A DNA stretch of 21,983 nt from the IMG/VR virus record IMGVR_UViG_3300010370_000281, positions 1 to 21,983 of that record; one strand, written 5' to 3'. This document shows positions 1-21,687 of this stretch, piece by piece. The position numbers were made by a program, and so were the translations under genes. Under the pieces are notes generated by a model. The model saw only the letters and a list, made by a program, of their open reading frames with translations. It was not told the DNA's origin and did not search any database. The number at the start of each line of letters is the position of its first letter. Positions within the stretch are counted from its first letter, which is position 1. Source of the stretch: a virus.

Positions 1-33
1 GATTAGGACTTTCCCTAGTGGTATAAATGCGAC

Positions 34-366
34 ATGACCAAATCCCCCACCCAGCGAAGCCTTGAGTACCTACGGGAAATCGGCATGAAGCCGTGGATCT
101 GCGAATACTGGAACTCGTTTAGCAGGAAGCGGGTTGACTTGTACGGATGTATAGACCTTCTAGCCATTGGCAACGGAGAGACCTGGGCGGTGCAGACAAC
201 GAGTACGGGTGTATCCAGTCGGATACATAAGATCAGGGAGAGCGAGTTTTTCCCTGTGATGCTTGAGAGTGGCTGGCGGGTCTTCGTGCATGGCTACAGG
301 AAGAACTCGAAGGGAAGATATGTGATGAGAATTGTTGAGTTGACAGCGGAATCGAATATAGAATAG
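34..366 (+). CDS. PD-(D/E)XK nuclease-fold-like small protein
   Basis: A 110-residue protein with a restriction-endonuclease-like core. Residues 33-41 read RVDLYGCID and are followed by a strand ending in Q54-T-T56. This matches the D...(E/Q)-x-K layout of Mrr/VRR-type nucleases, with Thr in place of the usual Lys. A later basic stretch (R63, H65, K66, R68) fits a nucleic-acid-facing helix. The active site is therefore degenerate, and the protein may bind DNA rather than cut it. The ATG at 34 has no clear Shine-Dalgarno sequence; a TATAAA lies only about 7 bases upstream, so a leaderless start is possible. It is the first gene of the plus-strand block and is separated by 98 bases from the replication genes. 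The fold is inferred from the motif only. Confidence 0.55.
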   Translation: MTKSPTQRSLEYLREIGMKPWICEYWNSFSRKRVDLYGCIDLLAIGNGETWAVQTTSTGVSSRIHKIRESEFFPVMLESGWRVFVHGYRKNSKGRYVMRIVELTAESNIE

Positions 367-367
367 T
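340..367 (+). promoter_or_regulatory. Candidate sigma70-type promoter before the replication genes
   Basis: A perfect TTGACA (340-345) is followed after 16 bases by AATAGT (362-367), a 4/6 match to the -10 consensus. It lies at the end of the first gene, about 100 bases before the DUF1376 start, where a promoter for the replication operon would be expected. The -10 is weak, so this remains a candidate. Confidence 0.35.
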
Positions 368-375
368 CTTTGCTC

Positions 376-432
376 GTTGCGGCTAGGGTAGCTCCCGAAT
401 AGGCGGTTTTCTCCTTTTCCGTCTGCCGCAAC
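376..432 (+). promoter_or_regulatory. Inverted repeat in the leader of the replication operon
   Basis: The arms GTTGCGGC (376-383) and GCCGCAAC (425-432) are perfectly complementary across 41 bases. A small GGG/CCC hairpin (386-396) sits inside, and pyrimidine-rich sequence (TTCTTTC) follows. It occupies most of the only sizeable gap in the early block (367-464) and would form in the leader RNA of the DUF1376 gene. It could be an attenuator, a terminator remnant or a protein-binding site. The loop is long for a simple intrinsic terminator. Confidence 0.35.
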
Positions 433-464
433 TTCTTTCAAGAGGAGATTGAAAAGGAGAAGCC

Positions 465-1214
465 ATGCATTTCTACAAATTCCACATGGGCGACTACAAG
501 TCTGCGACGGCCCATCTATCCAACGAAGAAGACCTAGCCTACCGACGGCTGCTCGATATGTATTACGACACAGAGCAACCTATCCCACTAGAAACCGACT
601 GGGTTGCAAGGCGGTTACGAGTGGGTAGCGAGGTGGTTGCTACAGTCCTCCAAGATATGTTCCGTGAGACAGAAAACGGCTGGGTACATGACCGCTGTGA
701 GGAGGAAATTCGGGAATATCACCGAATGGCTGACAGGGCTAGAGCCAATGGCAAGGCGGGTGGACGACCACCAAAACCCACTGGGAACCCAGTCGGAACC
801 CAGCAGGAACCCAGTCGAAAGCTAACCACTAACCATAAACCACTAACCACTAACCAAATAGAAACAAAGCGCACGAGTGCGCCTGTATGTCCAGAAAACA
901 TTTCTGAGCAAGTATGGAATGACTACCTAGCGGTTAGGAAGGCAAAGCGTAGCCCTCTTACCGCTACGGCTTTAACTGCCATCGAGAAGGAGGCGGGGAA
1001 GGCGGGTTGGTCTTTAGAGAAGGCTTTAAGTGAGTGTGCAGCTCGGGGATGGATCGGCTTTAAGGCAGAGTGGGTAGACAAGTTGTCTACACAGAAGTTA
1101 TCCTTTGCCGAGAGAGATGAATTGCTAAAGAGGAAGAAGTACGAGGAGATGACTGGTCGCCCGTGGCCTGAAGATGATGTGGCTCCTGCGGCTACCTGGG
1201 AGTTGCTGAAATGA
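465..1214 (+). CDS. DUF1376/YdaU-family phage replication protein
   Basis: A 249-residue protein whose N-terminus (HFYKFHMGDYKSATAHLS, EEDLAYRRLLDMYYDTEQPIP, RRLRV, ENGWVHDRCEEEI) matches the DUF1376 family. That family is found in phage and prophage replication modules beside helicase loaders. After about residue 100 comes a low-complexity linker rich in Pro, Thr, Asn and Gln, encoded by tandem DNA repeats (784-856), then a basic C-terminal region. The arrangement recalls lambda O, where the origin lies inside the initiator gene, so origin binding is a reasonable inference though not shown. The start is well supported: AAGGAG lies about 6 bases before the ATG, in a purine-rich leader. Its stop overlaps the next start in an ATGA. 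Confidence 0.8.
   Translation: MHFYKFHMGDYKSATAHLSNEEDLAYRRLLDMYYDTEQPIPLETDWVARRLRVGSEVVATVLQDMFRETENGWVHDRCEEEIREYHRMADRARANGKAGGRPPKPTGNPVGTQQEPSRKLTTNHKPLTTNQIETKRTSAPVCPENISEQVWNDYLAVRKAKRSPLTATALTAIEKEAGKAGWSLEKALSECAARGWIGFKAEWVDKLSTQKLSFAERDELLKRKKYEEMTGRPWPEDDVAPAATWELLK
784..856 (+). repeat. Iteron-like tandem repeats inside the DUF1376 gene
   Basis: Two adjacent repeat sets. GGAACCCAG occurs three times at an exact 11-base period (784, 795, 806), about one helical turn. The heptamer CTAACCA occurs at 822, 829, 843 and 850 with a degenerate TAAACCA at 836, so five units lie head to tail without a gap. Both sets encode the Pro/Thr/Asn/Gln linker. Regular helical spacing inside a replication gene is what origin iterons look like, but this could also be a low-complexity coding linker. 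Confidence 0.6.
1074..1090. repeat. 17-base odd palindrome in the DUF1376 gene
   Basis: GTAGACAA (1074-1081) and TTGTCTAC (1083-1090) are perfect inverted copies around a single G at 1082. It lies in the coding sequence about 220 bases after the tandem repeats. The dyad size suits a dimeric DNA-binding protein. One such site in about 22 kb is also possible by chance. Confidence 0.35.
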
Positions 1215-1516
1215 ACCCAAAAATAATTGATGCCTTGTTTGACAAGATGTTTATGGTCTACGGGTCGGAGTGGTCGAAGAAATGGGATGGAAGGCCAATC
1301 CAAGAAACCAAAGGCGCATGGGCAGCAGAACTATCTGGCTTTAAGGTCGAGCAGATAAAACACGCTCTGGACAATTTGCCTGAGAGACCACCGAACTTAA
1401 TTCAATTCAAGTCGCTATGCCAACACGCTCCCGTTTACTTAGAGGTCAATAGATTGACTTACAGGCCACAAGTTAACCAGGAGAAGAGGGCTAAGTTGTT
1501 GGAGGTTTTGAAATGA
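1211..1516 (+). CDS. Lambda P-like replication protein (helicase loader candidate)
   Basis: A 101-residue protein. It has FDKMFMVYGSEWSKKW near the start, a central WAAELSGFKVEQIKHALDNL, and RPPNLIQFKSLC at about residues 59-70. The pattern of a Trp-containing helix, an I-x-x-A/G-L helix and a W/R-P-P-x-x-x-x-F-x-x-x-C turn is the conserved core of phage replication proteins of the lambda P type, which recruit the host DnaB helicase to the origin. It is much shorter than lambda P (233 residues), so only the core domain is present. Position supports the call: it follows the DUF1376 gene with a 4-base ATGA overlap and has GGGAG upstream of the ATG. Confidence 0.55.
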   Translation: MNPKIIDALFDKMFMVYGSEWSKKWDGRPIQETKGAWAAELSGFKVEQIKHALDNLPERPPNLIQFKSLCQHAPVYLEVNRLTYRPQVNQEKRAKLLEVLK

Positions 1517-1842
1517 GGTACTACCTACACGAGAATAGAACAGCGGCTCTCAGGGCGGTTGCAGATGCTCCACATGGGTATTACTGCGAGATCAAACAAC
1601 CGACTAGGACTAACGACCAGAACGCCCTTTATTGGAAGGAGCTGGAGTTGTTAGCAGAGAAGGCAGGGCATACCGCAGAGTTGTGGCATGAGTTCTTCCT
1701 GCGCCAATTTGTCAAACCGCAGACCGCAGAGATAGCCGGAGAGGTCATCATCATGCGGCCCTCAACAACGAAACTCTCCAAGCAGGAGTTCTCGGACTAC
1801 CTAGAGAAAGTTTTTGCATGGCTGGCAGAAAATGTTAAATAA
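1513..1842 (+). CDS. ninB: NinB-family recombination protein
   Basis: A 109-residue protein with the NinB/lambda Orf signature RTNDQNALYWKELELLA at about residues 32-48, followed by a helix with WHEFFLRQF. Lambda Orf (NinB) is a recombination mediator that binds single-stranded DNA and can replace host RecFOR. This copy is shorter than lambda Orf (146 residues). A GGAGG about 8 bases upstream supports the ATG, which overlaps the previous stop in an ATGA. It sits between the replication genes and a small HNH protein, the usual nin-like neighbourhood. Confidence 0.8.
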   Translation: MRYYLHENRTAALRAVADAPHGYYCEIKQPTRTNDQNALYWKELELLAEKAGHTAELWHEFFLRQFVKPQTAEIAGEVIIMRPSTTKLSKQEFSDYLEKVFAWLAENVK

Positions 1843-2092
1843 ACTCAACAAGAAAGAAAAAGACCATCTGCTAAGAATTAAAGAGATGGACTGTGCTGTG
1901 TGTGGTGCTTCTGCCCCAAGTGAGGCTCATCATCTTAGGCAGCATCACCAGTACCTGTGTATCCCTCTCTGTTCAGACTGCCACCGAGGTTCTATAAACG
2001 GATGGCATGGGCAGAAGCGGATGTGGAATGTAAAGAAGATGGACGAACTGGACGCACTCAACGAGACCCTCAGATGTTTACTATCTCACTAA
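1832..2092 (+). CDS. Small HNH/Ref-like zinc-binding nuclease
   Basis: An 86-residue protein with C21-x2-C24, H33-H34, C47-x2-C50-H51 and a downstream NGWHG (H59). This is the Cys4/His layout of small phage HNH proteins such as P1 Ref (RecA-dependent nuclease) and the NinG/DUF968 group. Location right after ninB favours a recombination role, perhaps cutting D-loops or branched intermediates. I prefer the ATG at 1832, which overlaps the ninB end by 11 bases. A TTG at 1814 would add six residues and has no better ribosome site. The family choice among Ref, DUF968 and NinG is uncertain; the metal-binding core is clear. Confidence 0.65.
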   Translation: MLNKLNKKEKDHLLRIKEMDCAVCGASAPSEAHHLRQHHQYLCIPLCSDCHRGSINGWHGQKRMWNVKKMDELDALNETLRCLLSH

Positions 2093-2682
2093 CCTTTTAT
2101 AACGACCACGAGCATATAGAGCGCCATTTAGATGAGTGGTGCAAGTATCCCGAGGTTCCTAAACAGGTCATTGATGACGGCTCTAAGAAGCCTTTAGAAC
2201 TGCACTCAATTCCTGTCTACCGAATAGAAGAAGACATCCCCTGGAATATCCCAGGCGCTCGGAATCTAGGTGCGACTGTCTGCACGACCCCGTGGATTCT
2301 TTTCTGCGACACAGATCAGTCTTTCTCTTATGACTCGATGGCTAAACTTCTGGACACGAGGTTAGAGAGAGGAGAGTTTTATTCCTTTGAGCGAAAGAAT
2401 CGCCCTCGGACTTGCGGGACTCTTTTGATACACCGAGAGGACTATTGGGCGGTCGGTGGCTACGACGACGACTTCGCTGGGCATTACGGATACAACGACC
2501 CCTATCTAAGACACTTACTTTGGAACCACGGGGTAAAAGAAGTCACCCTTCCTATTCTCTGCGACCAATACTCCGCAGATTGCGTACTAGACCGCCAGCC
2601 GAATAACGAAGCCCTCTACAACTACAAACTACAAACGGGGCGCTCTCGCTCCATTCTGAGGTTCCCGTGGCGGAGGGTCTAA
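2074..2682 (+). CDS. Family 2 (GT-A) glycosyltransferase
   Basis: A 202-residue protein beginning MFTISLTFYNDHE. It has the nucleotide-sugar motif DDGS (34-37), IPWNIPGARNLGA (about 55-67), a metal-binding D79-x-D81 in FCDTDQ, and a GGYDDDFAGHYGYND segment (128-142). That last segment resembles the C-terminal galactosyltransferase-type domain, which shapes the acceptor pocket. These are the standard parts of a GT-A inverting enzyme, so activity is likely. The acceptor (DNA base, capsid protein or host glycan) is unknown. An in-frame GTG at 1957 would add 39 residues overlapping the HNH gene and lacking GT homology, so the ATG at 2074 was chosen. First of three glycosyltransferases in a row. 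Confidence 0.8.
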   Translation: MFTISLTFYNDHEHIERHLDEWCKYPEVPKQVIDDGSKKPLELHSIPVYRIEEDIPWNIPGARNLGATVCTTPWILFCDTDQSFSYDSMAKLLDTRLERGEFYSFERKNRPRTCGTLLIHREDYWAVGGYDDDFAGHYGYNDPYLRHLLWNHGVKEVTLPILCDQYSADCVLDRQPNNEALYNYKLQTGRSRSILRFPWRRV

Positions 2683-3089
2683 AGAAGTTCTCCCAGGAGC
2701 TGCACGACGAGAACGACCAACCAGCAAAAGATGCGGTCTGGAGGTTCCTTTTTAGAGACTGGAAGTTAGATGTAGAGGAGGGGGATAAGTACGATGTTGA
2801 CCTCGTATGCATGAGAAACGGGGAGGTCGTCGGGTATGTAGAGGTAGAGCGAAGGCAGAACGACTTAAACCGCTTTGAGACGATTCATGTCCCCTACCGA
2901 AAGAAGAAGTTTTTTGTACTGGATCATCCTACGATCCTGTTTGCTGTAAACCGAGACTTTACGGAGGCTTTCTGGGTCGATGGGGATATAATCCTACAGT
3001 CTCCAGTAGAAAATAAAGTCAACAAGTATCTAAAGTCGGAGCGGTTTTTCGTGGTTCCTAAAGTTAAGTGGAGGAGGGTTAAGTTGTGA
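2667..3089 (+). CDS. Putative PD-(D/E)XK-superfamily protein with an E-x-E active site
   Basis: A 140-residue protein. After a helical start (about 1-32) it reads KYDVDLVCMRNGEVVGYVEVERR (41-63, interrupted here only by numbering), giving D43-x-D45, then E59-V-E61. This is the central beta-meander of a restriction-endonuclease fold with Glu where Lys usually stands, as known for BamHI. Downstream strands (FVLDHPTILFAVN) complete an alpha/beta core. The start is a GTG with GAGG six bases upstream, overlapping the glycosyltransferase end by 16 bases. It lies between two glycosyltransferases, suggesting it belongs to the modification cluster, for example by cutting unmodified DNA. The function is an inference from one motif. 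Confidence 0.45.
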   Translation: MAEGLKKFSQELHDENDQPAKDAVWRFLFRDWKLDVEEGDKYDVDLVCMRNGEVVGYVEVERRQNDLNRFETIHVPYRKKKFFVLDHPTILFAVNRDFTEAFWVDGDIILQSPVENKVNKYLKSERFFVVPKVKWRRVKL

Positions 3090-3703
3090 AAGTTTGTGTG
3101 TACACATCTGTTTTTGGAGACTACGACAAGATCGTAGAGCCTGTCTCCCAATCAATCCCAATAGACTTCAAGGTTTGTAATGAGCCGCATGACTTAGGCT
3201 CCCCAAGACTAGAAGCCAAGTATTACAAGATGCACCCACCCGAAGGCTACGACTACACGATCTGGGTGGATGGGTCTGTCAGGATAACTTCTCGGTTCTT
3301 TGCTGAGTACATGGTTTCTCAGGCCAAAGACAAGTGGGCTTTCTTTCCTCACCCGTGGAGACATTGTATATACGCTGAGGCAGAAGAAGCCCATAGCATG
3401 AAGAAGTACCTAGACCAACCAATAATGAAACAGGTGAACTTCTACAGGTCTGAGGGTATGCCAGAGAACTACGGGATGCCTTCTTGCGGGATCATTGCTC
3501 GGTCTACCTGGGGGCAGGAAATCAACGAGGCATGGTGGAACGAGAACCTATCTTGGTCAATAAAGGATCAGGTATCACTTCCATATGTGCTCTGGAAGCA
3601 AAAACAGACTGTATATCTTTGTGATGTCCCGTTGTTCGGTAACGGGTACTTTGAGATTCACGCAAACCATCGGGCCGAGGAGTACAAAAAATGTCAGCAA
3701 TAG
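3086..3703 (+). CDS. DUF616 / TOD1-MUCI70-type glycosyltransferase
   Basis: A 205-residue protein starting MKVCVYTSVFGDYDKIVEP, the hallmark of the DUF616 glycosyltransferase-like domain. It continues with YTIWVDGS (57-64, the DxD-like metal site), FFPHPWRHCIYAEAEEA (86-102) and a late MPSCGIIARS. Members occur in plants, bacteria and large viruses and are thought to transfer sugars to glycans. The GTG start is supported by GGAGGAGG about 8-15 bases upstream and overlaps the previous stop in GTGA. The acceptor is unknown. Second of three consecutive glycosyltransferases. Confidence 0.7.
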   Translation: MKVCVYTSVFGDYDKIVEPVSQSIPIDFKVCNEPHDLGSPRLEAKYYKMHPPEGYDYTIWVDGSVRITSRFFAEYMVSQAKDKWAFFPHPWRHCIYAEAEEAHSMKKYLDQPIMKQVNFYRSEGMPENYGMPSCGIIARSTWGQEINEAWWNENLSWSIKDQVSLPYVLWKQKQTVYLCDVPLFGNGYFEIHANHRAEEYKKCQQ

Positions 3704-4368
3704 TTATCTGCACCAAGAACGCTAAGTGTCTAGGTGTTCTTGCGTCAAGCATTACCTTTTACCTACCGAAGTTCTTTACTGTCTACCTATCGGGGTCGGA
3801 TATTCTCCTGCCTAAACACAGGACTATCAATCTCCCCAACGATGCGACGAACTTCGGAGACGCTTACAACGCTGCCATCAAAGAAGCCTTCATATCCCAC
3901 GATGATGTGATTGTCTGTAATGATGATGTTGTCCTGACACCGTACACATGGAAGACGCTCATGGACGATTTAAGAGTCATTCCAGAGGAAAAGCGGGGTT
4001 GGGTCACAGCCAGATCAGACTACGCTCGTGGCTACCAAAACATTCGTTATAAGCACGAGGGCGACAGGAACACGATTCGCCACGCCTCGGAGGATCAGAT
4101 CATCGAGGTCGATGTAGTGGCCCCCATATTTGCGTATATACACAAATCCGCCTGGGTTGACTTCCCGCCCCTTAATTGGTACTCAGATGACATCCAATGC
4201 CTAGATATGGTAGAAAAGGGGTTTAGGCATTATATTTCAAGGGCTTATGTCCACCATGTTGGCTCTCAGACCTGTGGGCTTGACTATCAGAAGTGTATTG
4301 AGGAAGCGAAACCTTGGATAGAGAAGAACAGACCAGAATTAGCGGAAATTTGGTTCAAGAAAAGTTAG
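3691..4368 (+). CDS. GT-A-fold glycosyltransferase
   Basis: A 225-residue protein. NFGDAYNAAI (54-63) matches the nucleotide-binding helix of family 2 enzymes, and VIVCNDDV (73-80) is the metal-binding DxD-equivalent strand. The acceptor side has VVAPIFAYIHKSAW (about 148-161), NWYSDDIQCLDMVEKG and a histidine-containing HHVGSQTCG, where the second metal ligand is expected. The enzyme looks complete. GAGGAG about 8 bases before the ATG supports the start, which overlaps the DUF616 gene by 13 bases. Sequence is clearly different from the other two glycosyltransferases, so these are not recent duplicates. Confidence 0.75.
   Translation: MSAIVICTKNAKCLGVLASSITFYLPKFFTVYLSGSDILLPKHRTINLPNDATNFGDAYNAAIKEAFISHDDVIVCNDDVVLTPYTWKTLMDDLRVIPEEKRGWVTARSDYARGYQNIRYKHEGDRNTIRHASEDQIIEVDVVAPIFAYIHKSAWVDFPPLNWYSDDIQCLDMVEKGFRHYISRAYVHHVGSQTCGLDYQKCIEEAKPWIEKNRPELAEIWFKKS
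4300..4304 (+). promoter_or_regulatory. Ribosome binding site deciding a TTG start
   Basis: GAGGA at 4300-4304 lies nine bases before the TTG at 4314. It is the best ribosome site available for the Q-like gene, which has no ATG until deep in its conserved region. A second TTG at 4350 has only a weak purine run upstream. Confidence 0.4.
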
Positions 4369-4736
4369 TCAACTGGGCGCTGTGGTGTGAGTGGGGGCTT
4401 ATAGGGCCGCCAGTCCAGACCAGAGCGGCTAGTGCAGAGGGAGATTACACCCCCGAGTTGGGAGAGATTTACGACCCTCCTGAACCCACCATAGAACCCG
4501 ACTTCCAAGACGGGGAAAAGATGGAGGGGCTTATTAGGGAACTCCCTGAATTACAGCGTAGAATTATCAAGGCAAAGTATGTATCATTCCCGTACCAGAA
4601 GCACTTTTCTATAGCGCAGAAGTTACGGGTCTCACAGGACAGGTTTGAATTAGAGTTGCGACAAGCAACAGAAAGGTTAGCAAGGAAATGGAACAGCGAA
4701 GCGAAATTTGGCTACAAACCCGAGTCGGTAAGTTAA
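4314..4736 (+). CDS. Antitermination protein Q-like transcription regulator
   Basis: A protein of up to 140 residues. Near the start is LVNWALWCEWG, then a Pro/acidic linker (YTPELGEIYDPPEPTIEPD). A helical C-terminus follows with LIRELPELQRRIIKAKYV, FSIAQKLRVSQDRFELELRQATERLA. The order of N-W-A-x-W, linker and sigma region 4-like helix-turn-helix matches phage antiterminator Q / ArpU-like late regulators. These bind near the late promoter and let RNA polymerase read through terminators. It starts with TTG, inside the preceding glycosyltransferase gene, and overlaps the exonuclease gene by 49 bases. The late genes lie on the opposite strand, so it would act in trans on a promoter outside the window. 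Confidence 0.5.
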   Translation: MDREEQTRISGNLVQEKLVNWALWCEWGLIGPPVQTRAASAEGDYTPELGEIYDPPEPTIEPDFQDGEKMEGLIRELPELQRRIIKAKYVSFPYQKHFSIAQKLRVSQDRFELELRQATERLARKWNSEAKFGYKPESVS

Positions 4737-5299
4737 CAGGGAGTAGATGTGATGACGCTCTGGCAACGACAAAGACTGGCGAATCTGCATATCGTAGAAA
4801 TCTCAGGCTTCAGATTCTTGCTGAACGCCTTACGGGTATTGCTACCATAATTCCTGAGACCCCAGCCATGAGGTGGGGGACAGAGAACGAACCCGTCGCT
4901 AGGCTTAAATTTGCCTCAGAAACGGGTCTACAGGTCGATGAGGTGGGTTTTATAGAGCACCCTATCCTGAAGGGCTTTGGAGCCTCTCCAGACGGTTTTA
5001 CGAGCGACGGAGGGGTACTAGAGATCAAATGCCCCCAAGGGCCGAAGCATATTGAGAACATCCTGGCAGGGAAGATCCCCAAGGAGTACCAAGCGCAGCT
5101 CTTGGCCCAACTTTCCTGCACGGGTCGGAAGTTCGCTTATTGGGCCAGTTTCCACCCCATGTTCCCAGAAAAAACACAAATTAAAATCATTAAGTTCCAG
5201 CCCGACGAGGAAGAACTTTCGGACTTTGAGAGCCGGATCTATGAGTTCCTAGAAGAAGTCAACGACATGGAGAGGAGGCTTCGTGGAGATAACAATTAA
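4688..5299 (+). CDS. YqaJ/lambda exonuclease-family recombinase
   Basis: A 203-residue protein with all lambda exonuclease-type motifs: EIWLQTRVGKLTGSR (6-20), MRWGTENEPVAR (61-72), GASPDGF with D102, LEIKCP with E112 and K114, and YQAQL (134-138). D102, E112 and K114 form the PD-(D/E)XK site. The family degrades the 5' strand at double-strand ends to leave 3' single strands for annealing. Length fits lambda exonuclease (226). The ATG has AAGGA upstream and overlaps the Q-like gene. No clear annealing partner (Beta, Erf or RecT type) was found near it, although NinB and an SSB-like protein are encoded in the same operon. Confidence 0.88.
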   Translation: MEQRSEIWLQTRVGKLTGSRCDDALATTKTGESAYRRNLRLQILAERLTGIATIIPETPAMRWGTENEPVARLKFASETGLQVDEVGFIEHPILKGFGASPDGFTSDGGVLEIKCPQGPKHIENILAGKIPKEYQAQLLAQLSCTGRKFAYWASFHPMFPEKTQIKIIKFQPDEEELSDFESRIYEFLEEVNDMERRLRGDNN

Positions 5300-5474
5300 G
5301 ACGGAAAGTCTGGACGAGGCTCACTATATGATCCTGTCTTCCCAGGTTATTGCCGACCTCGACGACTTCCGTAGGTATCTGCGGGATAAATTAAAATACG
5401 CTATTGAAGATGTCTCCGTAGTAGAAGAAATCTATGGAGAGTTTTGCGAGGGGGTCGGGAGGCATCTTGAATGA
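5283..5474 (+). CDS. Small acidic phage protein of unknown function
   Basis: A 63-residue protein with a short beta start (MEITIKTESLDEA) and two predicted helices (VIADLDDFRRYLRDKLKYA and VEEIYGEFCEGVGRHLE). Small proteins of this shape are common next to phage recombination genes, but I do not recognise a function. The GTG start is supported by AGAGGAGG six to seven bases upstream. The gene overlaps both neighbours (17 bases with the exonuclease, 4 bases with the methyltransferase), so it belongs to the same transcription unit. Confidence 0.65.
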   Translation: MEITIKTESLDEAHYMILSSQVIADLDDFRRYLRDKLKYAIEDVSVVEEIYGEFCEGVGRHLE

Positions 5475-6040
5475 AGGTGCTAAACCGACATAAGTCCTAT
5501 GAGGACTATGTTTTGAAGCAGAAGGAAAAGACGCTCGATCCACAAAGAATCAAGAGATGGCAGGGCGAAGAGTGGCAGATAAAGGTCGACGGATTTAATC
5601 GGGTTTTTGACCGAAATGCCAAGTATGTCTCTGAGGCTACAAATGCCCTATGTTTAGGCTCTAGGACGGGCCAGGAGGTTGCTGCACTCAGAGATCGGGG
5701 GATAGCCACCATCGGGATAGATTTGGTGGAGTTCCTGCCGTACACGATCACGGGAGACATCCATGACCTACAGTTTGGGGACAGGGAGTTTGACCTAGTT
5801 TTTACCAACATCTTTGACCACTCGATGTATCCAGATAAATTGGTCTCAGAGATGGAACGGGTCTGCAAGGGGTTTATGATCTTAAACCTACAGGTAGGCA
5901 TAAAGGGTGACAATTACTCTGAGAACTTTGTAGACAAGCCAGAGAGTGTTGTGAAACTATTTAAGTCTGAACTTGTGGAATCAAGGAAGATTGACAACCA
6001 GTTTGACGGGATGAACTGGGAACTGGTGTTCAAGAAATGA
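5471..6040 (+). CDS. Class I SAM-dependent methyltransferase
   Basis: A 189-residue protein. Motif I is ALCLGSRTGQEV (59-70), followed by the adenosine-binding acidic strand end GIDL (82-85). Then come GDIHDL (95-100) and a motif IV-like FDLVFTNIFDHSMY (107-120). This is a complete Rossmann SAM-binding core. The DPPY-type site of DNA amino-methyltransferases is absent, so a small molecule, sugar, protein or lipid target is as likely as DNA. GGGAGG precedes the ATG, and the start overlaps the previous gene in an ATGA. With the glycosyltransferases upstream it could be part of a glycan or base tailoring pathway. Confidence 0.78.
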   Translation: MKVLNRHKSYEDYVLKQKEKTLDPQRIKRWQGEEWQIKVDGFNRVFDRNAKYVSEATNALCLGSRTGQEVAALRDRGIATIGIDLVEFLPYTITGDIHDLQFGDREFDLVFTNIFDHSMYPDKLVSEMERVCKGFMILNLQVGIKGDNYSENFVDKPESVVKLFKSELVESRKIDNQFDGMNWELVFKK

Positions 6041-6180
6041 GCAGTTGGTTGATAGCCTTGGTTGGTTTGGTATACCTTTACATAGGTGTAGAACAGTATC
6101 TGAAGGGAAACAGCCCCCTTGGGATTACCTTTGTTGGCTACGCATTTAGCAACATCGGTCTTTACTTGGCTGCGAAATAG
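6037..6180 (+). CDS. 47-residue membrane protein
   Basis: A small ORF, MSSWLIALVGLVYLYIGVEQ followed by a short polar turn (YLKGNSPLG) and a second hydrophobic stretch (ITFVGYAFSNIGLYLAAK). The layout is two membrane helices joined by a short loop. The ATG overlaps the methyltransferase stop in an ATGA and the next gene starts 10 bases after its TAG, so it fills the gap exactly as a translated gene would. Similar tiny two-helix proteins occur in phage early operons without known function. It is not next to the lysis genes, so a holin role is unlikely. Confidence 0.65.
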   Translation: MSSWLIALVGLVYLYIGVEQYLKGNSPLGITFVGYAFSNIGLYLAAK

Positions 6181-6190
6181 AAAGGGTTAT

Positions 6191-6406
6191 ATGGGAATCA
6201 AGTACGAAGTGATCGCTAATGGCGGGTCTTACACCAACAAAGAAGGTGTTGAGAAAAAGCGTTGGCTTAAGTGTGGAGTCGTTATGGAAGGCCAAAAGGG
6301 ACTGTCTCTGAAACTGGAGTCGATTCCAGTCGGGACTGATGGGTGGTTTATCTTGTCAGAACCCCGTGAGAAGTTTATGGACTCCAAAGACGATTTGCCG
6401 TTCTAA
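6191..6406 (+). CDS. Small OB-like ssDNA-binding protein candidate with an SSB-type tail
   Basis: A 71-residue protein, MGIKYEVIANGGSYTNKEGV onward, with alternating beta strands (KYEVIAN, KRWLKCGVVME, LSLKLESIPV, GWFILSEPRE) typical of a small OB-like barrel. The C-terminus, DSKDDLPF, closely resembles the acidic DDDIPF tip of bacterial SSB, which recruits exonucleases, RecO, PriA and other partners. Together with the nearby exonuclease and NinB this points to single-strand handling. The ATG at 6191 is chosen because an upstream in-frame start (6119) would overlap the membrane protein gene. Its stop overlaps the next start (TAATG). Confidence 0.6.
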   Translation: MGIKYEVIANGGSYTNKEGVEKKRWLKCGVVMEGQKGLSLKLESIPVGTDGWFILSEPREKFMDSKDDLPF

Positions 6407-6846
6407 TGTATACGGATGTCCTTCACTTTATGAAGGCGTGTGGGCACGAGCCTAGCGATAAGCTCGTCGCCCTCTACCACGACCTTGTTGCGGAAGAAGT
6501 CGGTGAACTAGAAGTCGGAATCGCTAAGTTCAACGCAGCGGAATCCAAGGAGGAATTGATAGCCGCCAAAGCGGAAACTTTGGATGCCATCTGTGACTCT
6601 ATCTGGGTGCTGATTGGGCTGGCTAGGGCTATGGATTTGCCACTAGATTGGGGATGGGATGAAGTGGCAATCACCAACTTCAAGAAGATTGACCCTGAAC
6701 TCGGGATCGTCAGAAGAGACGAGAACGGAAAGATAATGAAACCAGAGAGGTGGGTTCCACCTGACATGGTGCGGATAATTAAAAATTATGAGCTTAGAAA
6801 TAAAGATCCTGAACTACCTTCAACGCAAGACCTTCAAGACTCCTAA
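6406..6846 (+). CDS. MazG-like nucleotide pyrophosphohydrolase
   Basis: A 146-residue all-alpha protein with the metal-binding pattern E31-x-x-E34 (LVAEEVGELE) and E57-x-x-D60 plus D64 (AETLDAICDSIWVLIGLA). A late NGKIMKPERWVPPDM follows, characteristic of phage MazG-like / phosphoribosyl-ATP pyrophosphohydrolase-like enzymes. The family hydrolyses nucleoside triphosphates to monophosphate and pyrophosphate, and phage versions are thought to tune nucleotide or alarmone pools. The start overlaps the SSB-like gene by one base. The last part of the gene is overlapped by the winged-helix ORF. Confidence 0.8.
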   Translation: MYTDVLHFMKACGHEPSDKLVALYHDLVAEEVGELEVGIAKFNAAESKEELIAAKAETLDAICDSIWVLIGLARAMDLPLDWGWDEVAITNFKKIDPELGIVRRDENGKIMKPERWVPPDMVRIIKNYELRNKDPELPSTQDLQDS

Positions 6847-7030
6847 AGAGATCAGCGAGTATTTCTTATGCAGTCAGGGCTTTTCGAGGGAGATTTGCGA
6901 GAAGATGTTAAGCCGAGGTTTACTAGAGAGACGGAAAAAAGACGGACTCAACTCGTATCGTTCGGTGAGTTTTACGCCACGAGCGAAGAAGTCAGAATCA
7001 TCACAGAGCGAGACTCTGAGATCAAACTAG
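6788..7030 (+). CDS. Small winged-helix protein, possibly the first half of a frameshifted gene
   Basis: An 80-residue ORF. Residues 1-60 read as a compact winged helix-turn-helix: SLEIKILNYLQRK, TPKEISEYF, FSREICEKMLSRGLLERRKK and the wing NSYRSV. The last 20 residues are Ser/Lys-rich and look non-conserved. The start lies 59 bases inside the MazG-like gene without a strong ribosome site. From 6868 a second open frame (one base back) overlaps it and continues to 7188 with a well-formed basic helix region. Either this is a stand-alone small DNA-binding protein or the two frames once formed, or still form by -1 slippage, one protein. An A6 run (6935-6940) and a T4 run (6970-6973) lie in the overlap. 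Confidence 0.5.
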   Translation: MSLEIKILNYLQRKTFKTPKEISEYFLCSQGFSREICEKMLSRGLLERRKKDGLNSYRSVSFTPRAKKSESSQSETLRSN

Positions 7031-7188
7031 AGAACCTCTCAGAGATGGTGGCTGGGTGGAAGGAAAAGAAAAAGAGGCGGGAGTTCGTGGAGTCCTTTGA
7101 GAGACGACACGGGGCGTATTTGGGCGGGAAGTTAAGGGAGATGGTTGCTAAGAAATTCTTTGCGAAATCTTCCTCACTACCCGCTTAA
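6868..7188 (+). CDS. Basic helical protein overlapping the winged-helix ORF; start uncertain
   Basis: Open frame of up to 106 residues in the -1 frame relative to the winged-helix ORF. The part before about residue 45 looks like a shadow of the overlapping gene. The part after it looks genuine: ENLSEMVAGWKEKKKRREFV then ESFERRHGAYLGGKLREMVA, two basic amphipathic helices with an HG turn. An internal ATG at 7045 would give only 47 residues and has a poor ribosome site. This therefore looks like the C-terminal half of a protein whose N-terminal winged helix is in the other frame. It is the last plus-strand gene and runs 41 bases into the end of the convergent HNH gene. Confidence 0.4.
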   Translation: MQSGLFEGDLREDVKPRFTRETEKRRTQLVSFGEFYATSEEVRIITERDSEIKLENLSEMVAGWKEKKKRREFVESFERRHGAYLGGKLREMVAKKFFAKSSSLPA

Positions 7189-7540
7189 CTTTTTTCATCA
7201 CGGCTTTCTCAAACTCCTCGTCGTTGTGGAGTCTTCTGTGACAGTTAGAGCACAGAACCACGCATTTCTTGATCTCCTCCATAGCGGCCCTAAAGCGCCC
7301 GTGTCCGGCTAGTTTGTAGACCTTCTCATTATCAGGAGAGTGAACCACATGGTGGAAGTCTAGGGCTTCTGGACACTCGTTATAGCCACAATACTGGCAG
7401 GACAGAGTAGCCTTATATGCTTTATATTTCTCACGGAGACTGAGTTTCTGCCGAGCGGTGGTTGCTATCACCTTGTCTCGGTTCTTCTCGTACCACCTTC
7501 TTGACCAAATTTTCTGTTTCTCTGGGTCTCTCGTCGGCAT
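7148..7540 (-). CDS. HNH endonuclease
   Basis: A 130-residue protein with a basic N-terminus (KQKIWSRRWYEKNRDKV) and a zinc-anchored HNH core: C48-x2-C51, ALDFHH (D61, H63, H64), CVVLCSNCHRRLH with C97, C100, H101 and H105. DFHH supplies the general-base His, and the second Cys pair completes the structural zinc site. It is last in the late block, overlapping the SprT-like stop in TAATG. It may be a free-standing homing-type endonuclease or a packaging-associated HNH; terminase is not adjacent here. Its 3' end overlaps the last plus-strand ORF. Confidence 0.8.
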   Translation of the reverse strand: MPTRDPEKQKIWSRRWYEKNRDKVIATTARQKLSLREKYKAYKATLSCQYCGYNECPEALDFHHVVHSPDNEKVYKLAGHGRFRAAMEEIKKCVVLCSNCHRRLHNDEEFEKAVMKKVKRVVRKISQRIS

Positions 7541-7878
7541 TAAAATTCTTTGGGGTCAAATCCAAATTCAGCGCAAATCTTGTTTGCGTGATCCTTAAAT
7601 TCTCTACCATGCTTGTCCCAGTCCTTGAACCCGTCTTTGCAGAGTTTTAGGTGGACTATCTCATGGGCCATCGTCTTTATTAAGGTATCGAGATGCCCGA
7701 CCTTACAGGACGAGATACGGATGACATGAGGCTCGTTCTCGTACTCCCCATAACACTTAGGATCTCTAATGACTTGGAAGATGACTTTCTCTGAGGGAGG
7801 AAGTCTCCAGCCCTTTATAGGTGAGAGTTGTATTAGGGTTTCGTAGACGATTCGGCAGCTATCACTCGACAGGCGCAT
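7540..7878 (-). CDS. SprT-like zinc metalloprotease
   Basis: A 112-residue protein with MAHEIVHLKL (H72-E73-x2-H76) and a downstream DWDKHGREF supplying the third zinc ligand H90. This HExxH...H(G)xxF arrangement is that of SprT/Spartan-like and related small metallopeptidases. No signal peptide is visible, so it would act in the cytoplasm. The start overlaps the end of the small holin-like gene by 17 bases. Its placement between a holin-like gene and an HNH gene suggests a late role, perhaps removing DNA-protein crosslinks or processing a virion or lysis protein. The substrate is unknown. Confidence 0.7.
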   Translation of the reverse strand: MRLSSDSCRIVYETLIQLSPIKGWRLPPSEKVIFQVIRDPKCYGEYENEPHVIRISSCKVGHLDTLIKTMAHEIVHLKLCKDGFKDWDKHGREFKDHANKICAEFGFDPKEF

Positions 7879-8044
7879 GGCGACCCGTGAGCTTCTTTAC
7901 TGTCTCGGTTTCCCAAATCCTGATCCCTGTCCAGATGATCGTAAACAGGGCGGCAACGGCTGGGAGAAACTCCATTAGAGTCCCTACTACTGTCACCACG
8001 GACAGAGCGTCTACAGCGGTCTTGGCGGTGTCATGGTGCGTCAT
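7862..8044 (-). CDS. Small holin-like membrane protein
   Basis: A 60-residue protein, MTHHDTAKTAVDALSVVTVV followed by GTLMEFLPAVAALFTIIWTG and a charged end with WETETVKKL and RH. It has one long or two short membrane helices (about 13-45), a short polar start and a basic tail. That fits class II/III holins and the small membrane proteins next to phage endolysins. The start overlaps the endolysin stop by 14 bases. A separate 3TM holin lies on the other side of the endolysin, so this could be a second holin, an antiholin or a pinholin-like partner. Confidence 0.6.
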   Translation of the reverse strand: MTHHDTAKTAVDALSVVTVVGTLMEFLPAVAALFTIIWTGIRIWETETVKKLTGRHAPVE

Positions 8045-8507
8045 ATAAGGCTCTTTCGTCTTTCCGTCTTTTGACTAATCCGTTTAAGACTCTTCCCCCT
8101 GCCTTTGTCCACATCATAAAGGCTTCCGATGCTCCTGCATAGTCACCTCTGTTATGTTTCATTCTTATTGTTGATCTCTGTAGATTTCCAAGGCCGACAT
8201 TGAAAGCAAAACTGACAAGCGCATCAAATTGAGACTGAGTAGTAACGGGGCATAAACGAAGCACCCCAGTCTCAAATCTACGCAAGTCGTCGGCAAGGAT
8301 GTCGTCAACCTCTTTCGATGATAGAACCCTGTTCCACCCGTGGGGAATTGGTAAATTCTTGCGTTCATCGAATTTAACCTTTATGTGTGACGGGTCGATT
8401 ACATGACCAACCCCAACAGTCCACAAGAGTGCAGGACATTGGTAGGGTCTAGTCTTCACGCCTTCGTGATGCTTAATCATCTCGATGACCTTGGAACTTA
8501 CTTTCAC
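8031..8507 (-). CDS. GH24 endolysin (T4/P21-type lysozyme)
   Basis: A 158-residue protein with the catalytic layout E15 (HHEG), C24 (YQCP) and T30 (LWTVGVGH), that is Glu-8-Asp/Cys-5-Thr, as in P21-type endolysins where Cys replaces the T4 Asp. Downstream FDALVSFAFNVG and the C-terminal GLVKRRKDERALY are standard for the family. It cleaves the beta-1,4 bond between MurNAc and GlcNAc. There is no signal peptide or signal-anchor segment at the N-terminus, so release should depend on a holin. The GTG start overlaps the holin stop in GTGA and has GGAG upstream. Confidence 0.92.
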   Translation of the reverse strand: MKVSSKVIEMIKHHEGVKTRPYQCPALLWTVGVGHVIDPSHIKVKFDERKNLPIPHGWNRVLSSKEVDDILADDLRRFETGVLRLCPVTTQSQFDALVSFAFNVGLGNLQRSTIRMKHNRGDYAGASEAFMMWTKAGGRVLNGLVKRRKDERALYDAP

Positions 8508-9007
8508 TTACGGCTCCAACCCCTAGACCCGAACCAAAATCCAATAATGCCGCCAAGCATAGCCATCTCGTCTTCAGAAAAGACTACATTTGCCATCTTC
8601 ACCACATCATCCATGTTCGTGATAACCCCTGGCATTACAAAGATGTTCCACGCTAGGAATAGGTTAATTGCCACAAGTTCCAGCACGAAGATATAAGTCA
8701 CAGTCGGGCGCACAGTACCGACATAGTTCACCACCCACTTGGAGGACTTCTCCATTACCTTTTCGTCGTGAGCCAAGGCAGCGTTCTGCATCTGCGCTTC
8801 GGTCTGCATAGCGACTTGATCTGTGCGGATCTCCTCGACTCTCTGCTGGGCAATAAAACCTTCACGGGCAAGAGCAAGCTCACGCTCCGTCTGAACCTGT
8901 GCGAGGGCTAGTTCATGCTTCTTGTCGGACTTGTCTTGGAAGAAGTCTAGGACTCTAGGAAGCCCAGAGATGAGTAGACCACCCAGCGTAGAAATAAGGG
9001 AGAGCAT
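8504..9007 (-). CDS. 3TM-superfamily holin
   Basis: A 167-residue protein with a hydrophobic N-terminus (MLSLISTLGGLLISGLPRVL) and a long charged helical middle (about 25-88). Two more hydrophobic segments follow (TYIFVLELVAINLFLAWNIF and MLGGIIGFWFGSRGW). The ending GFWFGSRGWSR and the V-R-P-T-V-T-Y entry are typical of the GTA/phage 3TM holin family (PF11351-like). It would form membrane lesions that release the endolysin encoded immediately downstream. The start overlaps the preceding stop (TAATG). Confidence 0.75.
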   Translation of the reverse strand: MLSLISTLGGLLISGLPRVLDFFQDKSDKKHELALAQVQTERELALAREGFIAQQRVEEIRTDQVAMQTEAQMQNAALAHDEKVMEKSSKWVVNYVGTVRPTVTYIFVLELVAINLFLAWNIFVMPGVITNMDDVVKMANVVFSEDEMAMLGGIIGFWFGSRGWSRK

Positions 9008-9474
9008 TAAAACTTACCTTTCGTGATGATGAACCAAATAGTCCCAACTATGAGTAGGACTAGAAACCCCATAAGAACAGTCATCCAGAACCACAAAAGT
9101 AGTTTCTCGATGAGATGGTCTTTCTCGGCTTCTTCTTCTAGTTGCTTGCGGATTTCTGCGGCTTTTGCCGCTTCTCGCTTGTGTCTGGCTTGTTGCTGGA
9201 ACTTGCACCAGTCTTGCCAAAGTCCAGGGCGACCCTGAATAATCATCAGGTCTTTGAGCTCTTGTTCTTTCTGCTTCATTTCCTCAAGAGCGAAGAACTC
9301 TTCTAAGTCGTTTCTATCGCTCTCGGGCTTTTCTTCTATCTTCTTTTGTAACTCGTTCTTAGCAGAAAACCACTCTATGACTGCCTTGCCAGCAGACATG
9401 ATTTCACCGCTATTCTGTACTGCCTCCTTTATGACCTGAAATGCTTGGTTCGCAAGCACCAACTCTGCGATCAT
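9007..9474 (-). CDS. Coiled-coil protein with C-terminal membrane anchor
   Basis: A 155-residue protein. Residues about 1-40 are a mixed helix (LVLANQAFQVIKEAVQN), then a long Glu/Lys/Gln/Ala-rich coiled coil (about 40-125) with a conserved-looking MIIQGRPGLWQDWCKFQQQA. A strong membrane helix follows at about 127-151 (LLLWFWMTVLMGFLVLLIVG) with a short basic end. Proteins of this plan sit before holins in marine and freshwater short-tailed phages. The function is not known to me: an inverted spanin-like lysis protein or a minor virion protein are options. The ATG is supported by GGAG about 9 bases upstream. Its first 65 bases overlap the homing endonuclease gene. Confidence 0.65.
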   Translation of the reverse strand: MIAELVLANQAFQVIKEAVQNSGEIMSAGKAVIEWFSAKNELQKKIEEKPESDRNDLEEFFALEEMKQKEQELKDLMIIQGRPGLWQDWCKFQQQARHKREAAKAAEIRKQLEEEAEKDHLIEKLLLWFWMTVLMGFLVLLIVGTIWFIITKGKF

Positions 9475-10234
9475 TTGCCACTCTCCAGTCGTTAAATGCT
9501 TTGCGATCTACATTTACATAGTTCGACCCAGGTTTTTTTATGTTGCTTTCCAAACAAAACAAAGCCAATAAACGCCTTGTTTCCCCGCTTGCTTGTCCCA
9601 TTTTTACAGCAAAAGAACTTTTACCAGTTAATAAGTCTTTTTCTTTGTGCTTTTTAGCACAAGCGACATAACCACCATAAGCACAGTTTTGCCTAGCATT
9701 TGGCATTTCTCGTGTTTTTTTTAGGTTTGTTGCTCCAGCCGCTTTGCCACCAAGAACGCAGCCAATTTTTTGTATGGTTGCCATGTGGCCTGATTCAGCG
9801 TTTTTGGCCCCTTGGACTCTCCCACCAGCAGAAACAGCATCTGTTCCATCTATTGCCTGCCTGCCCATTTTTGCAAACTGTATTCTTTGATCTTTGCTTA
9901 GACCGCAAAAAGCAGAGTCATAAGATGTTTCTTTTGCTCTGTTAGCCCATGCTTTATTTGATCTTAAAAAGTAACCTGGATTTTTTTCTTCAAATTTACA
10001 TAACCATTCATCAGCATTTGATTTTGAAGAAATCCAATCGCTACTAATAATTTCTATATTTTTTTTACTGTATCCGCCATGTTTTTTACAATGCGCTATC
10101 CAGTATTGACCAGATCCGTAATACCTTGATATATCTTTGCGTACTGTCTGACCAACATATAGCTTCCCGCTTGTTATGTTCTTTAGAACATAGTACCAAC
10201 GAGGTCGCCATGTGTTATCAAGTTCGACTAGCAT
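9410..10234 (-). CDS. GIY-YIG homing endonuclease
   Basis: A 274-residue protein. The N-terminal nuclease domain (about 12-100) shows WYYVLKNITSGKLYVGQTVR, the GIY-YIG variant YYV...YVG, then RYYGSGQYW with the conserved Arg, and NADEWLCKFEE with the likely catalytic Glu. The rest is glycine-rich repeated DNA-binding units (AKMGRQAIDG, SAGGRVQGAKNAESGHMA, LGGKAAGATN, YGGYVACAKKH). By eye its DNA is much richer in A/T runs than its neighbours, as expected for a recently acquired mobile gene. It sits between tail fibre and lysis genes and ends 65 bases inside the next gene. The likely target is the intact junction in related phages without it. Confidence 0.85.
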   Translation of the reverse strand: MLVELDNTWRPRWYYVLKNITSGKLYVGQTVRKDISRYYGSGQYWIAHCKKHGGYSKKNIEIISSDWISSKSNADEWLCKFEEKNPGYFLRSNKAWANRAKETSYDSAFCGLSKDQRIQFAKMGRQAIDGTDAVSAGGRVQGAKNAESGHMATIQKIGCVLGGKAAGATNLKKTREMPNARQNCAYGGYVACAKKHKEKDLLTGKSSFAVKMGQASGETRRLLALFCLESNIKKPGSNYVNVDRKAFNDWRVANDRRVGACEPSISGHKGGSTE

Positions 10235-10328
10235 GGTTCATCTTTCTATTTCGCTTTCAATGTCTAACACGCCATCAAAACGCATGGGACGCAGTAAGAG
10301 CCGTCATCATAAGTACAGGTGACATTGC
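10235..10328 (-). other. 94-base gap with two tiny open frames
   Basis: Between the tail fibre stop and the homing endonuclease start, the minus strand holds a 22-codon ORF starting MSNVTCTYDDGSYCVP, whose ATG overlaps the fibre stop in an ATGA. It also holds a 15-codon ORF in another frame, MRFDGVLDIESEIER, ending just before the endonuclease ATG. A one-base shift would join them into one peptide. They may be remnants of a small gene disturbed by the homing endonuclease insertion, or nothing. Confidence 0.25.
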
Positions 10329-11771: not shown

Positions 11772-11774
11772 GGC

Positions 11775-13331: not shown

Positions 13332-13332
13332 C

Positions 13333-14406: not shown

Positions 14407-15104
14407 TAGAGTAGTCCGTATCTAGTAAGTAGAGAGATGGTCGGTTCAAAATTGGCTTGCCCTGAAACAGGTTGTTGCTGTTGGTACTGAACTGGAGGGG
14501 TAATTTGTTGGGGTTGACCACCTAACAAAGATCCACCAAGTCTAAGCATATTTGACAAATTAGACGCACCTAAAAGTCCTGCGCTCGGGCTTAAATTCAT
14601 AGCCGCAGTCGGGAATATCCCAGTAGATCCTAAAGCCCCGCCAACAGCACCAGCATAGGTCGGCAAAGAAGAAGCCGCTAGTCCGTACCCAGATGTCGCT
14701 GGCATATACCCGTAAAGGCCGCTTGCTCCAGCCGCACCAGGGGTTAAACCCGTCGCTCCCGCAACACCCATTGGAGCGCCACCCATAAGTCCAGAAGCGC
14801 CTCCCAATGTATTCCCGAGGTAAGCCCCACCAGCACCCATAAGAGCGCCTGTAAGCGGGTTTCTACCGCCTAACGCAGAAGCACCAGCACCTATAAGTCC
14901 ACCACCTAAAAGGGTGGCAGTCGTTCCTGTAGCCCCCAGCATCCCGCCCAAAGCAGTACCAATCCCAGGGAAAGCAACCATAGCAATAGGGGCAGCAATA
15001 GGCGCAACTTTCTTGACAACATTAGCGACAGAACTTACTGCGCTTCCGACGGCCTTGCCTACGCTGCTTACCGCTTTACCTACGCTTCTGACTGCACCAC
15101 TCAT
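14406..15104 (-). CDS. Gly/Ala-rich hydrophobic virion protein (232 aa)
   Basis: A 232-residue protein. Residues 1-35 are repeated amphipathic units (VGKAVSSVGKAVGSAVSSVA), then a hydrophobic segment (VAPIAAPIAMVAFPGIG). Many glycine-zipper stretches follow (LGGGLIGAGASALGG, LMGAGGAYLGNTLGG), and the tail is Gln/Pro-rich (PPVQYQQQQPVSGQ). This composition suits a protein that inserts into the cell envelope during DNA ejection, comparable in role to T7 gp14, though similarity is only compositional. GAGG lies 6-9 bases before the ATG, two bases after the GNAT-like gene ends. Confidence 0.6.
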   Translation of the reverse strand: MSGAVRSVGKAVSSVGKAVGSAVSSVANVVKKVAPIAAPIAMVAFPGIGTALGGMLGATGTTATLLGGGLIGAGASALGGRNPLTGALMGAGGAYLGNTLGGASGLMGGAPMGVAGATGLTPGAAGASGLYGYMPATSGYGLAASSLPTYAGAVGGALGSTGIFPTAAMNLSPSAGLLGASNLSNMLRLGGSLLGGQPQQITPPVQYQQQQPVSGQANFEPTISLLTRYGLL

Positions 15105-15106
15105 AG

Positions 15107-16855: not shown

Positions 16856-16859
16856 TTGC

Positions 16860-19656: not shown

Positions 19657-19657
19657 A

Positions 19658-20044: not shown

Positions 20045-20046
20045 GA

Positions 20047-20667
20047 TTACCTCGATGTAACAGACATTTGAAGGGGAACACCAGAATACTCAGAAGACTC
20101 GTCAGAAACATTAAGAGACTCAAGAGCAGCGTTATAAAAATTCGACCAGATAGCAATGCGGTTATCGTTCATCAAGTAAGGCTCTGCCTCCACGAGAGCC
20201 CCATAAAGGAGCGCATCTGGGGCATTAGCCAAGAAGACATTGCTCGTGTTGCTATCACTCAAAACATCGGGTTTTGCGTAGTACAGCATCACCAAGGTGT
20301 AAGCCGTGTCGGGGATAGGAGCAAACTCAAACTCAGCGGCCCGAAGGGTATAGAAGTTAGGTCTGCCAGAATCAGCAGCACGAGCATCCCGACTAAAGGC
20401 ACTAGGACTTAGGTAACTCAGGGTGAAACGAGGACGGGCATCTATGTAAATGTCCCGCAATTCTAGGAAATCAGACGGAAGCCCTACTGTGCTATCTCCG
20501 CCAGTCGTGGTGGCAGTAGCGGTCTTCAACATCTGCCGAACCCTCAGATTTCTTTGGAGTCGGTACTCAGCAAGAGTAATAAAATCAGGAATTTGGGCAG
20601 TCAGATCAGAACGCCCAAGGTAATTGGCGATGCTAGTCTTTAGTCCCGAGTAATTCGTTATCGCCAT
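20047..20667 (-). CDS. Head-tail adaptor (T7 gp11 / SU10 adaptor-like)
   Basis: A 206-residue protein: NYSGLKTSIANYLGRSDLTA, IPDFITLAEYRLQRNLRVRQ, GLPSDFLELRDIYID, YTLVMLYYAKPD, DALLYGALVEAEPYLMNDNR. The pattern of early helices with E-x-R-L-x-R-x-L-R, a beta insert after LPSDFLELR, and the late ALLYGALxEAxPYL helix is that of the dodecameric adaptors of short-tailed phages. These sit between portal and nozzle. The start lies 35 bases inside the glycosyltransferase gene. Confidence 0.78.
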   Translation of the reverse strand: MAITNYSGLKTSIANYLGRSDLTAQIPDFITLAEYRLQRNLRVRQMLKTATATTTGGDSTVGLPSDFLELRDIYIDARPRFTLSYLSPSAFSRDARAADSGRPNFYTLRAAEFEFAPIPDTAYTLVMLYYAKPDVLSDSNTSNVFLANAPDALLYGALVEAEPYLMNDNRIAIWSNFYNAALESLNVSDESSEYSGVPLQMSVTSR

Positions 20668-21307
20668 CTATAATGTCCTTCCAGCCGTAGGTGTATGAGC
20701 CAACATGACCGATTTCATTACTAAGGCCGTGATCCACCCAAGTCTCAAAACCAGCGTCGTGCGCTGCAACACAGAAATGAACATCCTCGCCTAACACCTT
20801 GTTTCCAGGTAATTGGTAAAACCAGAACCAAGGTTGCGGGGTTTTTTCAAATACTTTCCTCTTAACCAGCATGACTCCACAGCCAATGCTCGTCACTTTC
20901 TCAATCCCAGTCTTTCCTTTTGAAGAAACCTGAGTCCAAACATTTGTCTTTTCTTCCTCGTTGATCACTAAGTTTTTAGCAGTCGCTTTCACAGGAATAG
21001 TCCGAGTTGTTGCATTTACACCACAAATATCTTTGTTGTGGCGCATCAATCTTTCAATAGTGTTCTTCGGGAATCGCATATCTGCGTCAACCCAGAGAAT
21101 CCAGTCACAGTTCTCTTCTAAGGCGGCAATGGCTAACTTTTCCCTCTGGTCGAATATCAGAGTGCCGTTGACCGTATAAATCGCCTGTTCGCCCTTCCTA
21201 AACTTAGAGTCATAACTGGTCATTAAAGCCAGATCAAAGGCGGTTCCAATCTCCATCTCGCCCCTGCTGGGAATACAAATTCCTACTTTATCGCCCTTTT
21301 TCTTCAT
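20633..21307 (-). CDS. GT-A glycosyltransferase within the virion operon
   Basis: A 224-residue protein: VGICIPSRGEMEIGTAFDLA (8-27), WILWVDADMRFP with D74-x-D76, and ICGVNATTRTIPVKA. VTSIGCGVMLVKRKVF (138-153) is the acceptor-side strand. GEDVHFC (173-179) follows, with the likely catalytic acid, and a late EIGHVG with H201. All parts of a metal-dependent GT-A enzyme are present. It is translated with the 106-residue protein (ATGA overlap) and overlaps the adaptor gene. Expression with the capsid suggests glycosylation of a virion or host-surface acceptor. It is unlike the three early enzymes in sequence. Confidence 0.78.
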   Translation of the reverse strand: MKKKGDKVGICIPSRGEMEIGTAFDLALMTSYDSKFRKGEQAIYTVNGTLIFDQREKLAIAALEENCDWILWVDADMRFPKNTIERLMRHNKDICGVNATTRTIPVKATAKNLVINEEEKTNVWTQVSSKGKTGIEKVTSIGCGVMLVKRKVFEKTPQPWFWFYQLPGNKVLGEDVHFCVAAHDAGFETWVDHGLSNEIGHVGSYTYGWKDIIDGDNELLGTKD

Positions 21308-21624: not shown

Positions 21625-21638
21625 GTAACTCCAAAGTC

Positions 21639-21661: not shown

Positions 21662-21687
21662 GATGCTACTACAACACTACCTGATTA

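Follow-up and report, generated by a model that had tools for sequence, protein, structure and literature searches.

The DNA of an uncultivated phage contains three glycosyltransferase genes of different families next to a gene for a nuclease-like protein, an arrangement that raises the question of what the enzymes glycosylate and whether the nuclease belongs with them. The window, by which we mean the whole stretch analysed, is an IMG/VR virus record (IMGVR_UViG_3300010370_000281; 21,983 bases) that is linear, probably partial, and derived from a podovirus-like phage. Its plus strand carries replication and recombination genes in positions 1-7030 (primosomal protein, NinB, HNH, YqaJ exonuclease, nucleotide pyrophosphohydrolase), and its minus strand carries lysis, tail and capsid genes in positions 7148-21981. 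Its tail and capsid proteins are most similar to those of contigs from Manatee Spring and of Methylophilales phage Venkman; among cultivated phages Venkman is closest, followed by Pelagibacter, Rhizobium and Pseudomonas phages. In the window's lineage, 11 relatives encode a PAPS-reductase-like protein (L032 1285-2109) 5´ of NinB. The late strand of the window has two possible homing endonuclease genes, one HNH-like (7148-7540, minus strand) and one GIY-YIG-like, as judged by eye, between tail-side genes (9410-10234, minus strand).

The genes and their products

A first-pass annotation had described the locus as a dedicated modification pathway, expressed early and directed at DNA bases, with the nuclease acting on unmodified DNA, or at host surface glycans. 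The open reading frames, the four protein families and the downstream methyltransferase on which it was based are present according to an ORF check, Pfam and AlphaFold2/Foldseek (Table 1). The three glycosyltransferases are also unrelated, as had been claimed, in that pairwise comparison of their profiles with hhalign gives probabilities <1%.

Table 1. Genes of the cluster, its surroundings and a fourth glycosyltransferase gene in the window
Feature	Position	Strand	Basis and remarks
HNH/NinG-like protein	1841..2092	+	phrog_1588; precedes GT2, its 3´ end overlapping the GT2 start
GT2-family glycosyltransferase (GT2), outermost accessory member	2074..2682	+	ATG; PF10111, PF00535
PDX, predicted PD-(D/E)XK-fold protein, passenger	2667..3089	+	D45...E59-x-E61; AlphaFold2 and Foldseek; distribution
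DUF616/TOD1_MUCI70 glycosyltransferase-like protein, accessory member	3086..3703	+	GTG start; PF04765
GT3, unclassified predicted GT-A enzyme, cassette core	3691..4368	+	ATG; AlphaFold2 model, Foldseek, alignment
ArpU/sigma-70 region 4-like putative late regulator	4350..4736	+	phrog_248 (E 1e-4); TIGR01637 phage_arpU (E 2.6e-5, below cut-off)
SAM methyltransferase	5471..6040	+	Methyltransf_11
Fourth glycosyltransferase, Anp1/phrog_1574 type	20633..21307	-	PF03452 (35.0 bits); phrog_1574 (8e-24)

GT2, PDX, DUF616 and GT3 overlap head to tail by 16, 4 and 13 bases and sit inside a longer run of overlapping genes, with an HNH-GT2 overlap before them and a GT3-regulator overlap after. In relatives, too, the HNH gene precedes GT2 or GT3, and the ArpU-like regulator adjoins GT3 in many relatives, on either its 3´ or its 5´ side. 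ArpU is a class of late regulators. The Methyltransf_11 gene of the window is rare in relatives (L056/L123). That the cluster is not a chance assembly is indicated by dN/dS ratios of ~0.02-0.16 in eleven pairs of relatives; the gene copies compared are under purifying selection, with the motif residues kept.

The GT2-family protein passes the curated cut-offs of both PF10111 (38.9 bits; cut-off 27.3) and PF00535 (24.0 bits; cut-off 23.3). It has a DxD motif at D79-D81 and a C-terminal GGYDDDFAGHYGYNDP motif, and its alignment (A4; 10 sequences) has a mean column identity of 85%. The DUF616 protein passes PF04765 with 52.2 bits (cut-off 21.4) and in this resembles the TOD1_MUCI70 family, from which it differs as a short, stand-alone phage version (205 aa) that is coupled to GT3. 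Of the plant proteins, MUCI70/RGGAT1 (DUF616, PF04765) is a galacturonosyltransferase (PMC10576798) and TOD1 has been reported as an alkaline ceramidase (PMC4309442).

GT3 has no match in Pfam or NCBIfam and no meaningful match among PHROGs. An AlphaFold2 model based on an alignment of 36 relatives (pLDDT 86.6) was matched by Foldseek to the GT-A enzymes GnT-I, AvpGT, TarP/TarS and SpsA with a probability of 1.00, and on this model GT3 is a predicted enzyme with a GT-A fold. NDD (77-79), WYSDD (163-167), H189, G191 and S192 are invariant (alignment A1), and N77-D78-D79 and W163-Y164-S165-D166-D167 probably represent metal and catalytic sites. PDX scores 20.7 bits against PDDEXK_14, a putative phage endonuclease family (PF24579), which is below the cut-off of 25. 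Its AlphaFold2 model (pLDDT 85.4) gives Foldseek matches to the SPARDA nuclease (E 1e-4), DpnI (9e-4), I-Ssp6803I and Hjc, and its core is accordingly modelled as a PD-(D/E)XK nuclease fold, as in PDDEXK_14. Residues D45, E59 and E61 do not vary among 14 sequences, with E replacing the K of the catalytic D...(D/E)xK motif, a further difference from PDDEXK_14. BamHI likewise has E in place of K in this motif. Searches of PDB sequences with the GT3, GT2, DUF616 and PDX profiles returned weak or chance matches only, and those to antibody chains (DUF616), nitric oxide synthase (GT3) and SunS (GT2; E 0.16) were dismissed.

A nested cassette with a passenger

Relatives of GT3 occur in at least 157 stretches in IMG/VR. 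Two different queries gave nothing among 50,697 phage records, and 84,980 genomes of bacteria and archaea yielded only three loci. The contig of one of these (L106) also encodes a relative of the phage tail protein and is probably viral DNA within a MAG; the other two are partial or weak. In essence, the GT3 family belongs to uncultivated phages, and it has neither a Pfam or NCBIfam model nor a cultivated member. DUF616, searched independently of GT3, has relatives in at least 114 IMG/VR stretches. The first-pass annotation had called DUF616 enzymes unusual in phages, which holds for cultivated phages (12 records), and the literature library searched contained no paper on DUF616 in phages.

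The order of the genes is fixed. Gene-order counts rest on the best 80 loci per query, and more distant exceptions may exist. Within this set, GT3 is directly downstream of DUF616 in 53 of 54 distinct DUF616 loci and the contig ends in the remaining one, and GT2 is directly upstream of DUF616 in all 14 distinct GT2 loci. The DUF616-GT3 pair is kept down to ~36% (DUF616) and ~32% (GT3) identity, and the two proteins co-diverge (r = 0.87; 61 pairs), to which phage relatedness contributes. GT3 is common without DUF616, and it then directly follows the HNH gene, a regulator or PDX. DUF616 without GT3 was not seen among the testable loci (best 80 of at least 114 stretches), nor was DUF616 found elsewhere in longer records of phages that have GT3 only. 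On the GT3 tree, the presence of DUF616 changes state about seven times, always in the same slot. The combinations therefore form a nested set: GT3, DUF616 with GT3, and GT2 with DUF616 and GT3. This is what a sequential glycan pathway initiated by GT3 would leave, if the order of reactions follows the nesting, and the pattern also fits branching or other acceptors. The survey of gene order thus sustains the suggestion of a dedicated pathway as far as the three glycosyltransferases are concerned, since relatives keep them side by side in one order and do not have them as scattered, unlinked genes. It also defines a conserved, ordered cassette in uncultivated phages, including a GT-A family absent from Pfam and NCBIfam, and the nesting offers a biosynthetic sequence that can be tested.

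A separate observation concerns L003, in which GT3 (132-812) matches window positions 3691-4368 for ~155 codons and is then 99% identical to L045. The regulator and exonuclease downstream differ from those of the window, and the switch may represent recombination inside GT3 or an assembly chimera.

The nuclease-fold gene does not follow this pattern. PDX lies between GT2 and DUF616 in the window only and adjoins DUF616 in none of 13 other distinct loci. In 6 distinct loci it directly precedes a GT3 that lacks DUF616, and the records in which it does so with neither of the other glycosyltransferases are L004, L005, L008, L009 and L011-L013. L083 has PDX but no GT3, G006 has it at a different place in the genome, and it also occurs in unrelated contigs. 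Because its distribution is its own and separate from that of the glycosyltransferases, PDX is an independent passenger outside the conserved cassette. That all four genes form one system, in which the nuclease cuts unmodified DNA, was the inclusion of PDX in the pathway as first annotated. The overlapping genes of the window and the predicted PD-(D/E)XK fold with its conserved D...ExE are in keeping with it, but it is contradicted by the distribution of PDX, and we regard it as highly improbable. The tempting step from glycosyltransferases beside a nuclease to glycosylated DNA is corrected by the analysis.

Candidate acceptors of the glycan

We favour, with moderate confidence, a reading of the three glycosyltransferases as a cytosolic glycan-assembly cassette in which GT3 acts first and a virion protein is the most likely acceptor. 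GT3, as the core enzyme, would use a nucleotide sugar to place the first residue on the acceptor. The DUF616 enzyme would extend the product of GT3 by one sugar, and the GT2-family enzyme would add another after the DUF616 step; particles would then leave the cell glycosylated. The order of these reactions, the donors and the acceptor are our inferences. The assignment to one cassette draws on the fixed DUF616-GT3 and GT2-DUF616 adjacencies (53/53 and 14/14 among the best 80 loci per query), the co-divergence, the nested presence and the state changes confined to one slot, and a cytosolic location is suggested by the lack of membrane segments in the glycosyltransferases.

The evidence pointing to the virion is circumstantial and comes from gene positions and precedent. 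In three sister groups GT3 is on the terminase strand, 1.3-5.2 kb upstream of TerL, and wherever TerL is present in the record it lies downstream of GT3 on the same strand (15/15, 34/34 and 4/4 loci). The GT3-TerL interval holds Methyltransf_11/23 SAM methyltransferases and a hexapeptide acyltransferase, which could decorate the glycan in these lineages, and in one group also a 2OG-Fe(II) oxygenase. The early position proposed for the cluster is therefore not a conserved property. The nearest cultivated relatives of DUF616 and GT2, in Cellulophaga phi18:1 and Tetraselmis virus S20, are among head and tail genes. The fourth glycosyltransferase gene of the window is between a gene proximal to the major capsid protein (MCP) gene and that of tail tubular protein A, a place it also has in several relatives (G001-G005, MW202462, MW202711). 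Against the virion reading, the cassette of the window itself is not beside structural genes; it is convergent to them, among the replication and recombination genes, and in the window's own lineage the late module found next to GT3 in the sister groups stays on the opposite strand. The neighbours of GT3 in the sister lineages could also have come together by chance, the region being variable. A precedent is provided by mycobacteriophages, whose own glycosyltransferases add glycans to capsid and tail-tube proteins (Freeman 2023, as cited in PMC12363180), the enzymes named being Che8 gp110, Corndog gp38 and one of Myrna (Freeman et al. 2023, cited in PMC12363180 and PMC11256854). In these citing accounts, the enzymes are phage-encoded, like those of the cassette, their action on virion proteins is demonstrated where ours is proposed, and the glycan has been found on capsid and tail. 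The fixed three-enzyme order with a DUF616 enzyme distinguishes the cassette from the mycobacteriophage enzymes. Should the cassette act on a virion protein, glycosylated particles would be a common trait of these podoviruses and not a speciality of mycobacteriophages.

Decoration of the virion is more probable than modification of DNA. Attachment of sugars to hydroxymethylated bases, protecting the phage DNA, would suit the location of the cassette among genes of DNA metabolism (YqaJ, NinB, primosomal protein), and a GT-A enzyme acting on DNA exists in TAGT, the second DNA glucosyltransferase of T-even phages (T6; PMC13216743). TAGT (PF20691) is similar to GT3 in size and general fold, and Foldseek matches of GT3 to viral models include TAGT-domain proteins of the GT-A type. 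Moreover, a 2OG oxygenase gene occurs in lineage D, where one record (G012) has a C5-methylase gene in addition. However, the TAGT profile matched T6 only and neither the window nor 30 relatives, and the glycosyltransferases have no match to PF20691, PF11440 or PF09198. No hydroxymethylase gene was found in the relatives: the thymidylate-synthase-type enzyme (PF00303) was found in 0/22 relatives and, in a search with positive T4 and T6 controls, in 0/18 relatives plus the window, the records, including that of the window, being incomplete. Among 26 records that all have GT3, a C5-methylase is present in four and a 2OG oxygenase in five, with both in one; a Tet/JBP search of 32 records gave no match, its control being likewise silent. 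The T4 alpha- and beta-glucosyltransferases (GT63/GT72), with which a structural comparison had been suggested, are phage glycosyltransferases like GT3, but they have a GT-B fold (PMC13216743) and use hmC, whereas the GT3 model is GT-A. Taken together, the case for DNA glycosylation, one of the two targets originally put forward, is weak, and we consider it decidedly improbable.

The other target, remodelling of a host surface glycan for receptor masking or superinfection exclusion, is possible but unlikely. GT2-family enzymes and folds like those of TarP and AvpGT act on bacterial surface glycans, and phage S-SCSM1 keeps its DUF616 relative inside a large glycosyltransferase/fucosyltransferase cluster that need not be virion-directed and so also counts against the virion reading. 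Against surface remodelling, no GtrA flippase (PF04138) was found in 30 relatives, with a positive control, and the enzymes lack membrane segments. The soluble enzymes might instead glycosylate a host cytosolic target, e.g., RNA polymerase, a defence protein or a small molecule, as part of host takeover. The ArpU-like regulator and replication genes beside the cassette of the window would agree with such a role, and so would the repeated gain and loss of the accessory members, as in an arms race; set against this are an empty PADLOC search and the terminase-strand position in sister lineages, which suggests a late function, and we hold a host target to be rather improbable.

Extensions of the virion reading

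A more far-reaching version of virion glycosylation is, in our view, speculative and on balance unlikely. GT3 would represent a GT-A family of its own, new and carried by phages, whose members initiate an oligosaccharide on a virion protein throughout a large group of uncultivated podoviruses. The DUF616 and GT2 enzymes would be interchangeable extenders, and in one lineage the acceptor hydroxyl would be made by a 2OG oxygenase that resembles prolyl hydroxylases. The particle glycan would then be modular, would switch often in evolution and would alter the encounter of the virus with hosts or grazers.

Two further genes were noted near GT3 in the sister groups. A conserved Cys-rich protein of 100-130 aa, for which no Pfam match was found and, in the two copies tried, no PHROG match, follows GT3 in more than 60 loci (e.g., L064 4540-4902, L167 2577-2963 and L114 2178-2492). 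In lineage D, a prolyl-hydroxylase-like 2OG-Fe(II) oxygenase (PF13640; L121 8416-9078) is encoded near DUF616-GT3 and could hydroxylate an acceptor.
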